Assembly (NCBI RefSeq): GCF_000332095.2
Contig: NZ_KI913949.1
Coordinates: 410,163 to 474,162, forward strand
DNA: 64,000 nucleotides
Direction of reading: 5' to 3'
Source of the DNA: Leptolyngbya sp. PCC 6406
GTDB taxonomy: Bacteria > Cyanobacteriota > Cyanobacteriia > Phormidesmidales > Phormidesmidaceae
Part shown: one piece after another, positions 7,300 to 15,949 of the stretch
Layout: each line of letters begins with the position of its first letter
How positions within the stretch are numbered: position 1 is the stretch's first letter
Position numbers and translations under genes: made by a program
The notes under the pieces: model-generated
Told to the model about the DNA's origin: nothing
Seen by the model: the letters and a program-made list of their open reading frames with translations, nothing else
Database searches by the model: none

Positions 7300-8106
7300 A
7301 TGCAAATCGCCACCTGGAACGTCAACTCCATCCGTTCTCGGCTCACCCATGTAGTGGACTGGCTCACGACCAACCCAGTGGATGTGTTGTGCCTGCAAGA
7401 AACCAAAGTGGTGGATGGAGACTTTCCCTTGGCACCCTTTGTAGATCTGGGCTACACCGCCGCCATCAGTGGCCAAAAATCCTACAACGGAGTGGCCCTC
7501 CTGAGCCGTGAGCCCCTGACCGCCGTGAGCACTGGGTTTGCCCCCATTGTCGGGGAGGAAGCCACAGGGGATCTCGATACCCAGAAGCGGGTAATCACCG
7601 GCGTTCTCAACACTGATAGCGGCGATATACGCATCGTCAACCTGTACGTGCCCAACGGCTCCTCCGTGGGCAGCGATAAGTATGACTACAAGCTGCGCTG
7701 GCTCACCCTCCTCCGTACCTACCTGGAAACCCTACTGGAGAAACATCCCGCCCTTCTGGTGTGCGGAGATTTCAACATTGCCCTAGAAGATCGCGACATT
7801 CACGACCCGGAGGGCAAAGACACCCACATCATGGCCTCCCCCCAGGAACGGGAAGCACTGCGGGAAATTCTATCCCTAGGGTTGCGGGATGCCTTTCGCA
7901 AGTTCACCGAAGCAAGCGGGCACTACAGTTGGTGGGACTACCGCGCTGCCTCCTTTCGCCGCAATCGGGGCTGGCGCATTGATCACCACTATCTGTCCCC
8001 CATCCTCTACGATCGCGCCACTGACTGCACCATTGATGTAGACCCCCGCAAGCAAGAAAAACCCAGCGACCATACCCCCGTCATTGTTGAAATCGGGCCA
8101 AAGTAA
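7300..8106 (+). CDS. xth: Exodeoxyribonuclease III / AP endonuclease
   Basis: A 268-aa ExoIII-family base-excision repair nuclease, acting at abasic sites and on duplex 3' ends. The endonuclease/exonuclease/phosphatase core is complete: ATWNVNSIRSR at residues 4-14, LQETK with the metal-binding Glu34, GDFNIALEDRD near 155, and the C-terminal RIDHHYLS and SDHTPVIVE motifs with catalytic Asp and His. The ATG at 7300 matches the conserved family N-terminus. The 3' end converges on, and overlaps by 26 bp, the remnant of the duplicated cold-shock/DUF1294 gene, so the island starts directly at the stop codon. Confidence 0.94.
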   Translation: MQIATWNVNSIRSRLTHVVDWLTTNPVDVLCLQETKVVDGDFPLAPFVDLGYTAAISGQKSYNGVALLSREPLTAVSTGFAPIVGEEATGDLDTQKRVITGVLNTDSGDIRIVNLYVPNGSSVGSDKYDYKLRWLTLLRTYLETLLEKHPALLVCGDFNIALEDRDIHDPEGKDTHIMASPQEREALREILSLGLRDAFRKFTEASGHYSWWDYRAASFRRNRGWRIDHHYLSPILYDRATDCTIDVDPRKQEKPSDHTPVIVEIGPK

Positions 8107-8708
8107 TGAAAGCAATGATCACGATCATCCAAAACTCAGCTTGATAAGACGTTTTTCGACTTTTGTGACGCAGTATCCGCTGGGCAATAAACCCGCGCAA
8201 CCATCCCCCTACAAGTTCGCACAAATGTAGCGTTTGTTCAGGAGTCCGCCAATCCTTTCGTTTGGCGCGCGATTTATCATCAGCGTATAGGGCGTAGGTC
8301 ACCAAACTCATTACAGGATAGATAATCAGTGGAAGGGGATTGAGCGTCGTCCATGTAAAATGAATAATTCCAACCAAAGGCAGAAGTGACAACAGAATCA
8401 CTTCAACTATCGGGAATTTTGAAGTGATGGCATCAGAGGGGTTAGCACGATTACTCAAAGACGATGGTTTATTTCTTGCTCCCAGAATAAATGCGTTGCA
8501 AGCGCGAACTTTGCCATCTGAGTCAGTTGTGCAGTAGTAATAAATTGTGTCGTTTTCTTGTGGGCGGCGAGTTGCATTTTTGATTTCGGAAATATGCAAA
8601 AAAAACTTCTTGGCCCCCATCAACGGGTTGGATGAAGCCAAATCCACGCTCATCCTTCCATTTTGCAAGCTTTCCACTGCGGAGGCCACGTTTCAAGAAA
8701 AGTCTCAA
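8081..8708 (-). pseudogene. Cold-shock/DUF1294 protein, frameshifted copy 1
   Basis: Copy 1 of the gene intact at 11153-11794. The N-terminal cold-shock-like part (ERGFGFIQPVDGGQ) is in one frame and the rest, from LHISEIKNATRR on, is in another. The break coincides with an extra A in the A tract near 8598-8605, where copy 2 has one fewer. The 3' end is also altered: homology to copy 2 stops near 8117 and the frame runs into the antisense of xth, replacing the last membrane segment. The gene is very probably inactive unless A-tract slippage rescues it. Confidence 0.8.
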
Positions 8709-8741
8709 TTACGAAAATTTTGTAGTTCTATATTCTGAGTC

Positions 8742-10552: not shown

Positions 10553-10700
10553 TCGGGTCAAGGAAGGGGTTTGAGATATAGCCCTTTCGCTGGTTAAGGA
10601 TAGGGAGTCACTTCCCTGCCTCGCCTGCAAAACCGGCCATGAGTATTTCTACTCATCCGTCTTCTCGGTGACTGGAGCAACTGACAAACCCACCTCCAGC
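10551..10700 (-). mobile_element. Group II intron 3' remnant (domains V/VI), copy 1
   Basis: The minus strand shows a domain V hairpin: GACGG, a 7-bp stem ATGAGTA/TACTCAT closed by a GAAA tetraloop, a bulge, then CCGGTTTT. A domain VI-like region follows and the remnant ends in ACCCGACC. The upstream part, including any intron-encoded protein, is missing, as expected for a 5'-truncated retroelement insertion. It cuts the PIN toxin gene. Confidence 0.6.
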
Positions 10701-11152: not shown

Positions 11153-11794
11153 CTATAGCGTTCTTCCCCAAAATAGCCAAAACAGCCATGCAATATAATG
11201 AATAATCACGATCATCCAAAACTCAGCTTGATAAGATTTTTTTCGACTTTTGTGACGCAGTATCCGCTGGGCAATAAACCCGCCCAACCATCCTCCTACA
11301 AGTTCGCATAAATGTAGTGTTTGTTCAGGAGTCCGCCAATCCTTTCGTTTGGCGCGCGATTTATCATCAGCGTATAGGGCGTAGGTCACCAAACTCATTA
11401 CAGGATAAATAATCAGTGGAAGGGGATTGAGCGTAGTCCATGTAAAATGAATAATTCCAACCAAAGGCAGAAGTGACAACAGAATCACTTCAACTATCGG
11501 GAATTTTGAAGTGACGGCATCAGAGGGGTTAGCACGATTACTCAAAGACGATGGTTTATTTCTTGCTCCCAGAATAAATGCGTTGCAAGCGCGAACTTTG
11601 CCATCTGAGTCAGTTGTGCAGTAGTAATAAATTGTGTCGTTTTCTTGTGGGCGGCGAGTTGCATTTTTGATTTCGGAAATATGCAAAAAAACTTCTTGCC
11701 CCCCATCAACGGGTTGGATAAAGCCAAATCCACGCTCATCCTTCCATTTTGCAAGCTTTCCACTACGGAGGCCAGGTTTCATGAAAAATCCCAA
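11153..11794 (-). CDS. Cold-shock-like / DUF1294 membrane protein
   Basis: A 213-aa two-domain protein. Residues 8-70 form a cold-shock-like OB domain (GKLAKWKDERGFGFIQP, the RNP1-like motif, then VFLHISEIKNATRR). Residues 95-213 form the DUF1294 membrane domain: two or three hydrophobic segments (VEVILLSLLPLVGIIHF, LIIYPVMSLVTYALYADDKS), then RTPEQTLHLCELVGGWLGGF and a final aromatic segment. CSD-DUF1294 proteins are widespread but uncharacterised; nucleic-acid binding at the membrane is an inference. This is the intact paralogue of the frameshifted gene at 8081-8708. Confidence 0.85.
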   Translation of the reverse strand: MGFFMKPGLRSGKLAKWKDERGFGFIQPVDGGQEVFLHISEIKNATRRPQENDTIYYYCTTDSDGKVRACNAFILGARNKPSSLSNRANPSDAVTSKFPIVEVILLSLLPLVGIIHFTWTTLNPLPLIIYPVMSLVTYALYADDKSRAKRKDWRTPEQTLHLCELVGGWLGGFIAQRILRHKSRKKSYQAEFWMIVIIHYIAWLFWLFWGRTL

Positions 11795-11817
11795 TTACGA
11801 GAATTTTGTAGTTCTAT
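11205..11817. repeat. Duplicated segment (with 8117-8735)
   Basis: About 615 bp here and at 8117-8735 are nearly identical (a few percent differences by eye) and in the same orientation. Homology covers the CSD/DUF1294 gene and about 25 bp of leader, ending at TTGTAGTTCTATA in both. The two copies bracket the GNAT and toxin-antitoxin block. At 8735 the homology ends about 7 bp from the attC site. Confidence 0.85.
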
Positions 11818-11952
11818 AGGGCTTTTTTCTGCGCTTCTGCGTAGATTCGTAGAGCAGCAGCCATATGTTACTCAGCTTCTTCTCCTCTGAATTGAAACTA
11901 TGATAAAGTCTCAGAGTCAACACGAATAGCAACAGTTGCTAACGAAGAAGAA

Positions 11953-12093
11953 GGGCGTTAATCATCGTTTCGGCAACTCAGACTAAGCAAGGATAGTCTC
12001 CAGGAAGCCGTAGCCCTTGGGGGACAAGGCTTGAGAGTTCAATAGTTTAGATAAACTATCCATGAATGGCCGTAGGTGGCCGAAACGATGACA
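11953..12093 (+). mobile_element. MITE-C, left copy
   Basis: A roughly 140-bp element bounded by CATCGTTTCGGC and GCCGAAACGATG. Outside and inside sequences (GGGCGTTAAT at one end, GGGACAAGGCTT in the middle) match the copy at 13275-13412 in inverted orientation. It lies in the 322-bp gap between the CSD/DUF1294 gene and the NucS-like gene, where I see no other feature. Confidence 0.65.
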
Positions 12094-12117
12094 GTGGCAT
12101 CCCGATTAACTGGTAAA

Positions 12118-13197
12118 TTAATTTTGCAACCCAAAGTGTTGTGACAATTTCTCAATTGTGAAACTGCTGGTCATTCGACAGGCTGTATGTTGAATTGCAA
12201 AGAGTCCTTTCTCCCAATAGGCTGTATTTTTTGGAATGGTTTTAAGCCATTCAACACGCACAACATACTCACATAAATCCAAGTTGTCAGAATTTTCACC
12301 CATATTAGGCGCTGCAAGTGGCGCACTTAGTATGGGTACTTCTTGATCTTCAAGCAATACTTTAAAGTCTTTGACAGGAACAACATTGTCTTTTACTAAA
12401 CCAATTCCAACATAGCCAGCTTTGGGAATATTAACAAAGACACGCGAACCTGGAAATAGCAGCTTAAGTGTTTGACTATACCACTTGCCACCACCACCTG
12501 ATACAAACCCATATTTCTGACAATCATTCCAACTTCTGTGTTCACCATCACCAAGACTGACATAGAAATCTCGTCCGTTCCAAGCCTCACTACCTTTTCT
12601 AACTGTTGATTTACTCACCTTGCGTTCAGCTTCTTCAGGTTCAATTAGCCAAGTTCGAGCTAAGTAACCACGATCTTCATCTCGAAAGAAACGAAAGAAA
12701 ACAGCATTTATGGGTACACCATAATTGTCAGTTAAATAATTGATGATTCTTTCTGTGCTAGTATCGATCTCTGATGCAACTACAATTAACTCATGTTGCT
12801 GATTAATCTGCTCTGGTAAACTCATGCCAAACGAGTCATCAAAGCCCTCTTCCAATTTCTTGCCAGCATTTTTATCTGAATAAATGGCTGCAATCTCTTC
12901 GTAAGAGAGAGATTGAATCCAAGAGGCATAGTCAAGCAATTGTGCCACGACTTCGCGTGGTGTGCGATTTTTCTTCAATTCAATAATGGATAGGTTGCCA
13001 GACATATCCATTGCCAACATATCAATGAACTTGCCATAAGATGTTGAAACCTGTCGCCCAATCAATATTAACTGATCAGACAAAATAGAAATATCTTGAA
13101 CAAGTGCATCTTCTAACCTTGACTCAGAGTCAATCGTAGACATCACAACTTTTTCGGGTTTGTCTCCTAACCGCCAGATTCCAACTTCAATAGGCAT
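12118..13197 (-). CDS. PD-(D/E)XK (DUF91/NucS-like) nuclease-type protein
   Basis: A 359-aa protein. The N-terminal half resembles the DUF91/NucS-like PD-(D/E)XK fold: an ELEDALV-like start (RLEDALVQDISIL), KFIDMLAMDMSGNLSIIELK giving the catalytic D..ExK at about residues 63-75, then RTPREVVAQLLDYASWI. The C-terminal half has WYSQTLKLLFPGSRVFVNIP and AGYVGIGLV, which resembles an EVE/PUA-like beta domain. Such proteins occur in restriction or defence contexts, but a role here is inference. The gene stands alone between inverted MITE-C copies and is AT-rich. Confidence 0.65.
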   Translation of the reverse strand: MPIEVGIWRLGDKPEKVVMSTIDSESRLEDALVQDISILSDQLILIGRQVSTSYGKFIDMLAMDMSGNLSIIELKKNRTPREVVAQLLDYASWIQSLSYEEIAAIYSDKNAGKKLEEGFDDSFGMSLPEQINQQHELIVVASEIDTSTERIINYLTDNYGVPINAVFFRFFRDEDRGYLARTWLIEPEEAERKVSKSTVRKGSEAWNGRDFYVSLGDGEHRSWNDCQKYGFVSGGGGKWYSQTLKLLFPGSRVFVNIPKAGYVGIGLVKDNVVPVKDFKVLLEDQEVPILSAPLAAPNMGENSDNLDLCEYVVRVEWLKTIPKNTAYWEKGLFAIQHTACRMTSSFTIEKLSQHFGLQN

Positions 13198-13274
13198 TCA
13201 ATTTCCTCAAAGAGTTTTACGTAGTAACAACTATAGACACAAACAGATAGCCTACAAGCACGGTCTGGCCTCTG

Positions 13275-13412
13275 TCATCGTTTCGGCCACCTTCATCCAC
13301 TTTGCTGGACAGTTCAAATGAACTGTATGCCTTGAAGCCTTGTCCCACAAAGGTTGCGGATTACTGAGGAGAAGGCTTGTCCAGTCGGAGTGGCCGAAAC
13401 GATGATTAACGC
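13275..13412 (-). mobile_element. MITE-C, right copy (inverted)
   Basis: It starts CTGTCATCGTTTCGGCCA and ends GCCGAAACGATGATTAACGC, the mirror arrangement of the left copy at 11953-12093. Its interior shares GGACAAGGCTT with that copy on the minus strand. Confidence 0.65.
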
Positions 13413-13419
13413 CCACTGT

Positions 13420-13818
13420 CTCAACAGATCACCTAAGCCAGCTAATAACTGTTTAGGCAGATCACAGTCTGTATAAGCACTCAAATTGGTTGATTAGACA
13501 GATTATAGTCTGCCGATTTGGCTGCTGAAGCAATATAGACAGGTCATGCTTTGCCTATATCGCCCCAATGGGGTGTTTAGGCATATCTAGTGTTGGATAA
13601 GCACTGTGATGGGGAGTGTTAGGCAGACGGCCCTACTTGCGGTCTAGGCTGATCTTGGGAAGTCGCTGCTGTGGTGATGGGCGCGTTAGGGGGGGAGTGG
13701 TCTATAGTTCTGCGGCTTTACTGGGGCGGGGGTGCTAATTGCAATGGAGTGGCATTGGCTAATGCTCGCGTGACAATGCCTTTCGCATCTATCATCTGCT
13801 AACAGTCCAGCATTGTGA
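13420..13818. other. Non-coding stretch with degenerate short repeats
   Basis: About 400 bp without a convincing gene. It contains loosely repeated units: TTTAGGCAGATC..ATAAGCACT near 13450 and TTTAGGCATATC..ATAAGCACT near 13577, and AGACAGATTATAGTCTGCC-like palindromes near 13455, 13495 and 13535. GTTAGGC at about 13619 resembles an attC core but has no paired arm. Confidence 0.4.
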
Positions 13819-14547: not shown

Positions 14548-15949
14548 GGCTCTTCCGGTCTGGCTATGGACAAAGGGCTACTGAGCAGGGGAAATGGAGA
14601 GAGAAATAAACGCTAGAAAGGCGTGAAGTGTTTGATATACAAGGGATTGGCTAAGAATTAAAGGGTGAGAGAAAGTCGCCATATATGGGTGAGCGCCATG
14701 ATCACAGAATCTGACGCGAGGCAATTGACAGAGCTACTGGGTCTTCCTGAGACAAAAGTAGAGGATATGACAATGATAGATGGGGTGGGGCTATTTTTTG
14801 TAATTAGCCCCACCCGCCGAGATGCAGAGTGTCCCCGGTGTGGGAAGCGAAGTCGTCATTTGCATGAGAATCATCGGTATAACATTGAGGATTTGCCGTG
14901 GAATCAACAGCCCGTAGTGTTGCGAGTCAATCGCCGCCAGTTTTGGTGCCAGGAATGTGGACAAGTGTTTAGCGAAGAACTGGCCTTTGTTAAGAAAAGG
15001 CGGTTGTATACGCAGCGGCTAGCGAAGCAGATTGTCGGCCAAGTGTTAGGGAGTAGCATTCACAGTGTGGCGGCTCGGACAGGGCTGAGTGACGAGCAGA
15101 TTGAGACGATGATAAAGGATGCCGGAAAGGCGTATTTACCCGAGAGCCCAGAACCGATTAGATATCTCGGGATAGACGAGATAGCGGTCGTCAAAGGTCA
15201 GGGTAACTATTATGGGGTGCTAGTGAACCTAGAGACGCACCAGCCGATCACCCTTCTACCCTCACGAACACAAGAGGGATTGCGCCAAGTCCTTAGCCAA
15301 TGGGGACCAGAGGTGCTTGAGGGGATTGAAGGGGTGAGCATAGACCTGTGGAAGCCCTACCAAAGTTTGGTAAAAGAGATGATGCCGAATGCGACCATTG
15401 TCGCGGATAGATTCCATGTCACCAAACTCGTCAATGAGGAGTTAGATAACGAACGGAAAGCGGAGAAGAGAGCGGCCAAGAAGATCGCAAAAAAGGCTGA
15501 GAGGGAGCGCGTCATAGAGGGTCTTAATGGCAGTAAGTATGCGTTACTAAAGAACGAAGGGAATTTGAATGAGAAACAGAAGAAGAAGCTCATAGAAGTG
15601 AGCGAAGTATCCCCTAAATTAGCAACGATGCATCGATTGAAAGAAGAGTTCAGAGAAATCTTTGAATCCTTCGAGAATTGGGCAGAAGGGACGTTAAAGT
15701 TACTGGACTGGATGGCGGATTCATCGACATTTTTCAATCAGAGTTGTGGCACGATTAAACGATGGTTTGATGAGGTGACATCATACTTTGAACTGAGAAT
15801 AACTAATGGGGTTGTGGAGGGAATAAATAACAAGCTTAAGTTGATCAAGAGATTAGGTTATGGCTTTGGCAATTTTGACAATTTCAAGTTAAGAGCTTTG
15901 TTGCCGTGGGTATTTCCTTTTGAAACACCATAGCCAGACCGGAAGAGCC
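14548..15949 (+). mobile_element. ISL3-family insertion sequence, complete
   Basis: A 1402-bp element with perfect 21-bp terminal inverted repeats starting GGCTCTTCCGGTCTGGCTAT. It is flanked by an exact 8-bp target duplication CTAAATAT (14540-14547 and 15950-15957), as expected for ISL3. The transposase is intact, so insertion looks recent. It separates the short ORF and Uma2 gene from their upstream region. Confidence 0.95.
14698..15933 (+). CDS. ISL3 family transposase
   Basis: A 411-aa ISL3 (DDE) transposase. An N-terminal zinc-binding region has CPRCGKRSRHLHE and FWCQECGQVF. Catalytic DDE blocks are LGIDEIAVVKGQGNYYGVLV near 170, ADRFHVTKLVNEELD near 245, and the C-terminal Glu within GVVEGINNKLKLIKRLGYGF. 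A Lys/Glu-rich helical insert at about 260-300 is usual. The ATG at 14698 is preferred; the frame opens earlier at 14665. Confidence 0.93.
   Translation: MITESDARQLTELLGLPETKVEDMTMIDGVGLFFVISPTRRDAECPRCGKRSRHLHENHRYNIEDLPWNQQPVVLRVNRRQFWCQECGQVFSEELAFVKKRRLYTQRLAKQIVGQVLGSSIHSVAARTGLSDEQIETMIKDAGKAYLPESPEPIRYLGIDEIAVVKGQGNYYGVLVNLETHQPITLLPSRTQEGLRQVLSQWGPEVLEGIEGVSIDLWKPYQSLVKEMMPNATIVADRFHVTKLVNEELDNERKAEKRAAKKIAKKAERERVIEGLNGSKYALLKNEGNLNEKQKKKLIEVSEVSPKLATMHRLKEEFREIFESFENWAEGTLKLLDWMADSSTFFNQSCGTIKRWFDEVTSYFELRITNGVVEGINNKLKLIKRLGYGFGNFDNFKLRALLPWVFPFETP

Follow-up and report, generated by a model that had tools for sequence, protein, structure and literature searches.

In Leptolyngbya sp. 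PCC 6406, two copies of a MITE here called MITE-C lie in opposite orientation on either side of a single nuclease-like gene. This arrangement raises the question of whether the gene and its flanking elements form one cargo unit that a transposase supplied in trans could move, as originally predicted, or whether two MITEs inserted there separately, and which transposase would have moved them. The locus was analysed within a stretch of 64,000 nucleotides (the window), and comparisons were extended to the rest of the genome (G000 in the coordinates below) and to other genomes, plasmids and viral contigs.

A MITE-C pair around a candidate defence gene

The predicted inverted pair is present, with both left ends pointing outward and one gene alone between the copies (Table 1). 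The spacing needs adjustment, as the inner ends lie 18 bp past the gene's stop (copy 1) and 69 bp before its start (copy 2) instead of 25 bp and 78 bp. The common outer sequence GGGCGTTAATCATCG is likewise present, but it is not extra sequence shared outside the elements; all but its first G makes up the left end of MITE-C. MITE-C has an inner inverted repeat of about 13-16 bp and similar tips, and carries no transposase gene. Each copy folds far more strongly than shuffled sequence (z about -4.8 to -5.4). The two copies are 74.5% identical to each other, and each has a closer relative elsewhere: copy 1 is 91.1% identical to G000:C1:1901158, its nearest relative, and copy 2 is 89.7% identical to G000:C1:3905138. 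Just outside copy 2, at window positions 13450-13605, there are also two 32-bp direct repeats (TGTTTAGGCA..ATAAGCACT) 124 bp apart.

Table 1. Coordinates of the elements, duplications and gene discussed in the text; positions are those of the window unless a genome or locus is named.
Feature	Position	Strand	Size or product	Ends and duplications
MITE-C copy 1	11954-12099	+	146 bp	left end GGCGTTAATCATCGTTTCGGC, right end ..GGCCGAAACGATGACAGTGGCA
MITE-C copy 2	13267-13413	-	147 bp; opposite orientation to copy 1, different subfamily	
Inner-side target duplication of copy 2	13259-13266			CACGGTCT; 7/8 match with 13414-13421
Outer-side target duplication of copy 2	13414-13421			CACTGTCT
Candidate anti-phage nuclease gene	12118-13197	-	359 aa; PADLOC PDC-S11	
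Complete ISL3 element	14548-15949			ends GGCTCTTCCGGTCTGGCTATGG; duplication CTAAATAT
Autonomous element	G058:C471:1309-3222		1914 bp; 570-aa ORF	
DUF6399 element, Thiodictyon plasmid pTs417	L133 2731-4646			ends GGCCTTGATCATCGTTCCGGCC / GGCCTTGATCATAAATCCGGCC; TSD GTCCAACC, 8/8

From its sequence matches, the gene between the copies encodes a candidate defence nuclease of the PDC-S11 type. The match to PADLOC PDC-S11 extends over the entire protein (residues 1-357, E 2.3e-153), which consists of an N-terminal NucS-like PD-(D/E)xK domain and a C-terminal domain seen in tandem elsewhere. The earlier label "NucS-like" is therefore fair but narrow, since the Pfam NucS_C match covers residues 24-95 only (E 7.8e-6) and the full-length match is to PDC-S11. 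D64, E73 and K75 (D64 / E73-x-K75) do not vary among the five homologues compared, those of a haloarchaeon, Kocuria, Deinococcus, Priestia and the present genome. Of four annotated neighbourhoods fetched, three have BREX, methylase or SNF2-type genes next to the homologue. Among plasmid records, 51 match the protein, 41 of them covering 80% or more of the query and all below 60% identity; relatives of the gene were not found in viral contigs. A single-sequence structure prediction of the protein was unusable (pLDDT 32). The C-terminal domain (residues 204-356) also forms tandem pairs, with no nuclease domain, in frames of 475-513 residues (L027/L047 in G015; L028/L046 in G074).

Several other features of the window were recorded. 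A DUF1294/cold-shock gene is duplicated (8081-8732 and 11153-11818, about 3.09 kb apart, with stretches 94-96% identical), and GNAT and Panacea-domain genes lie between its copies. On the minus strand at 10593-10666, Rfam matches to group II intron domain 5 that fall short of the gathering score (38.3 bits, cut-off 53) probably mark an intron remnant. A Uma2-type gene at 13819-14451 matches PADLOC PDC-S03 (E 1.3e-88).

The MITE-C family and its target duplications

The identification of the two copies as MITEs is borne out by dispersed relatives and by 8-bp target duplications in the family, and MITE-C is a genuine MITE family. BLAST with copy 1 against its own genome (5.78 Mb) returned 13 matches (E 7e-78 to 5e-10). 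Those at 992921 and 993142 belong to opposite ends of a single element that contains an extra insert, so that the matches amount to 12 elements; counting also a solo end (537371-537385) and a partial copy (2441391), this genome has 14 copies. The sequence GGGCGTTAATCATCG occurs there exactly at 6 places and with at most one mismatch at 10, and a reversed control pattern gave no matches. Across the family, element length is 145-148 bp. Three copies (G000:C1:992921-993216, 1900285 and 4320640) have in their interior one and the same junction to a different repeat (TTTGTAGGGTGGGCA...CCACCCTACGACT); these are nested repeats, and the right end is absent in two of the three.

Target duplications were counted in 30 distinct elements from the present genome, G025, Shackletoniella (many), Nodosilinea, others and one Thiodictyon, by reading the flanks outward from GGC at each end and comparing 8 bases. 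Rows were chosen by eye, 11 of 40 being dropped as spurious wide pairings or repeats of one element, and the copy at 1901158 was added by hand because the automatic finder had missed this copy with its 2-base insertion. A duplication matching at 7/8 or better was found in 16 of the 30 elements, perfect in 12, against 6 of 870 left-right cross pairs; with a slip of 1-2 nt allowed, the counts were 19/30 and 11/870. The remaining 11 elements, copy 1 of the window among them, have no duplication even with slip.

When copy 2 was used as query in 63 genomes of the order, matches were obtained in 11, several of them to ends only. Another search yielded 22 stretches: 14 in Shackletoniella, 1 in Nodosilinea and 7 single ends elsewhere, which are taken as chance. 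A phylum-wide search with the end pattern matched 6 of 386 genomes, G000 included; no second end was found in the other five, and these too are counted as chance. MITE-C resembles prokaryotic type II MITEs (reviewed in PMC10969869) in being short and non-coding, with TIRs, target duplications and many copies, and in a likeness to its autonomous element that is confined to the ends. It is unlike the elements described there in that its partner encodes a DUF6399 protein, rather than a protein named as a transposase in the family libraries searched.

DUF6399 elements as the putative source of transposase

The original prediction called for an autonomous element whose ends are those of MITE-C and whose transposase could act in trans, and a candidate for this role was found in a relative (G058) through an end match to copy 2. 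The MITE left end matches the left end of the G058 element at 21/22 positions and its right end at 19/22, and the MITE right end matches the right end at 21/22 and the left at 19/22; similarity between MITE and autonomous element is restricted to these end regions. The C-terminal part of the 570-residue protein matches Pfam DUF6399 (PF19936, "family of unknown function"; E 1.5e-46). The flanks of the G058 element (GCCAATGG / ATTTAGGA) contain no target duplication and the genome is fragmented (84% complete, 6% contamination), so that this element would by itself be weak support.

Further DUF6399 genes lie in elements with clear boundaries. The TIRs of the element on Thiodictyon plasmid pTs417 resemble the MITE-C type, and less than 400 bp from it lies a 160-bp MITE with like ends and its own 8/8 TSD, which is found at 5 places in 2 plasmids. 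A third DUF6399 element, in G064, is 1750 bp long, has different ends and an 8/8 TSD (TCCCGATC), and splits a reading frame; in silico removal of the element and one copy of the duplication restored a frame of 534 residues. No end pair with a duplication was found at the DUF6399 genes of Crinalium and Acaryochloris, and in the latter a second DUF6399 stretch, 96.9% identical, is present on another plasmid.

Five aligned DUF6399 proteins share the invariant residues D161, D215, D235, H238 and E488, and D, D and E in such an order are expected of a DDE transposase. From these residues and the elements that encode them, DUF6399 proteins are very probably DDE transposases. NCBIfam searches with the five aligned proteins gave no transposase family better than E 0.002, a profile search of solved structures gave nothing convincing (best E 0.04), and a literature search for the word DUF6399 returned no paper. 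DUF6399 relatives were found neither in viral contigs nor in phage records, and the single viral-contig match to the end pattern was accompanied by no DUF6399 match with E <0.3. We consider it likely that DUF6399 (PF19936) comprises the transposases of an IS family unrecognised by the libraries searched (Pfam, NCBIfam), with 8-bp duplications, ends of the GGCSTTRATCATCGTTYCGGCC type (at least in cyanobacteria and one purple sulphur bacterium) and MITEs of its own that have outlived their parent here.

In the present genome no DUF6399 gene was found by protein search or by family search, and there is no autonomous copy. A solo end at G000:C1:537385 is identical to the autonomous end at 41 of 46 bases, a likeness that continues beyond the TIR and by which this end is identified as a remnant of the parent element. 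With no DUF6399 gene and only this remnant end, MITE-C would be stranded in this genome, unless another transposase recognises its ends.

Origin of the pair

Taken as a whole, the best explanation, to which we assign a probability of roughly 85%, is a MITE-C family driven by DUF6399, two independent insertions around the gene, and later loss of the transposase. MITE-C would have been moved in trans by an IS-type element with a gene for a DUF6399 DDE transposase, in a cut-and-paste mode that leaves 8-bp duplications, and this transposase would recognise two slightly different ends, GGCSTTAATCATCGTTTCGGCC on the left and GGCCTCTRTCATCGTTTCGGCC on the right. Two members of different subfamilies would then have inserted independently and in opposite orientation, one after and one before the gene, in the surroundings of a horizontally spread candidate defence gene for which the insertions were presumably neutral. 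The transposase gene would since have been lost, with the end at 537385 left behind.

The main alternative is that the pair is a MITE-bounded composite, similar to the TIME-COMP type, that brought the defence gene here and could still move if a transposase were supplied. The inverted pair with left ends outward around one gene fits such a unit, as do the existence of a matching autonomous element and a second close MITE-C pair in the genome. Two inverted MITE copies around a gene are also what TIME-COMP and IMU composites have, and PMC13367494 describes IMU-bounded composites as mobilised in trans even though they lack direct repeats in the plasmids that carry them. In that paper, however, direct repeats, where present, lie outside the whole unit, unlike here, where they belong to copy 2 alone; the TIMEs described there are also Tn3-derived and are tabulated with 5-6 bp repeats, against 8 bp for MITE-C. 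The flanks outside the whole pair (AGAAGAAG and CACTGTCT) match at 1/8, also with slip allowed, whereas copy 2 has its own 7/8 duplication; copy 1, between AGAAGAAG and TCCCGATT, matches at 2/8 and so lacks one. Together with the different subfamilies of the copies, each with closer relatives elsewhere in the genome, and the single copy of the gene, the duplication and the mismatched outer flanks indicate two events and not one. The missing DUF6399 transposase gene also speaks against a cargo unit, and a composite, very unlikely on this evidence, is not supported as the best reading.

Searches for a second unit, an empty site or the gene without MITEs bear on the same choice. The gene occurs once in G000, and relatives do not have the same gene order beside chlH: of 10 genomes searched, 8 have an intact chlH, and the window gene order was kept in none of the 8 fetched flanks, three of which (L161, L165 and L166) span no more than 600-3325 bases. 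Only a Uma2 gene recurs, after chlH in two of the eight (G004 and G017). The MITE end pair is absent from the fetched DNA of all 36 loci that have a relative of the gene, and one Kocuria locus has a single end match with 2 mismatches, which suggests that the gene spreads without these MITEs; the original check for gene loci free of MITEs is answered to this extent, but by distant homologues, many related only in the nuclease domain and none orthologous. The spacing of the pair may not be pure accident. Two close pairs exist among the 14 copies (11954/13267 in the window, and 1900286/1901158 in direct orientation), and random placement of 14 copies gave at least two such pairs in 0.06-0.09% of trials and at least one in about 4%. 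A preference for tolerant intergenic sites, or short-range hopping, would account for this without a composite.

Two further readings concern the function and the parentage of the elements. In the first, the hairpins would have been kept as regulators of the gene, with copy 1 stabilising or terminating the transcript at its 3' end and copy 2 serving as a promoter or other regulatory element. Their distances from the gene (18 bp past the stop, 69 bp before the start) and the strong folding of both strands would suit this reading, but it is very unlikely, as neither copy has a promoter-like site, copy 1 has no terminator-like site, and copies elsewhere adjoin unrelated sequence; the region as a whole has 1 promoter-like site, fewer than the 3.4 expected from shuffled sequence. 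The 8-bp duplications leave no need to invoke integron attC sites or REP-like hairpins, which were considered by eye. It is extremely unlikely that MITE-C belongs to the adjoining ISL3 element and not to DUF6399, even though that element likewise has 8-bp duplications and a start of GGC, its transposase is present in 10 copies of equal score, E-value and frame length (one on contig C3), which suggests recent activity, and one DUF6399 protein has a weak match to an ISL3 domain. The ISL3 ends are unlike those of MITE-C, whereas the G058 element matches both at 21/22. Among three DUF6399 proteins scanned, DDE_Tnp_ISL3 was matched by one (E 0.034; 14.4 bits, below the cut-off of 23) and Zn_ribbon_ISL3 by none. 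DUF6399 elements do resemble ISL3 in their 8-bp duplications (8/8 in Thiodictyon and G064), ends starting GG, a DDE-type signature and a VEGxN-like motif at the glutamate. They differ in that no zinc ribbon was found and that a long insertion precedes the last catalytic residue, and comparison with the ISL3 profile gave no significant match (hhalign probability 0.5%).

Under the preferred reading of two separate DUF6399-driven insertions, the claim of a movable defence cassette falls away with the composite. A protein family of unknown function gains a concrete and testable role, that of a candidate transposase with defined ends and a defined duplication length. The MITE family in turn gains a putative parent, by which annotators may recognise such elements, and the insertions they have caused, in cyanobacteria.
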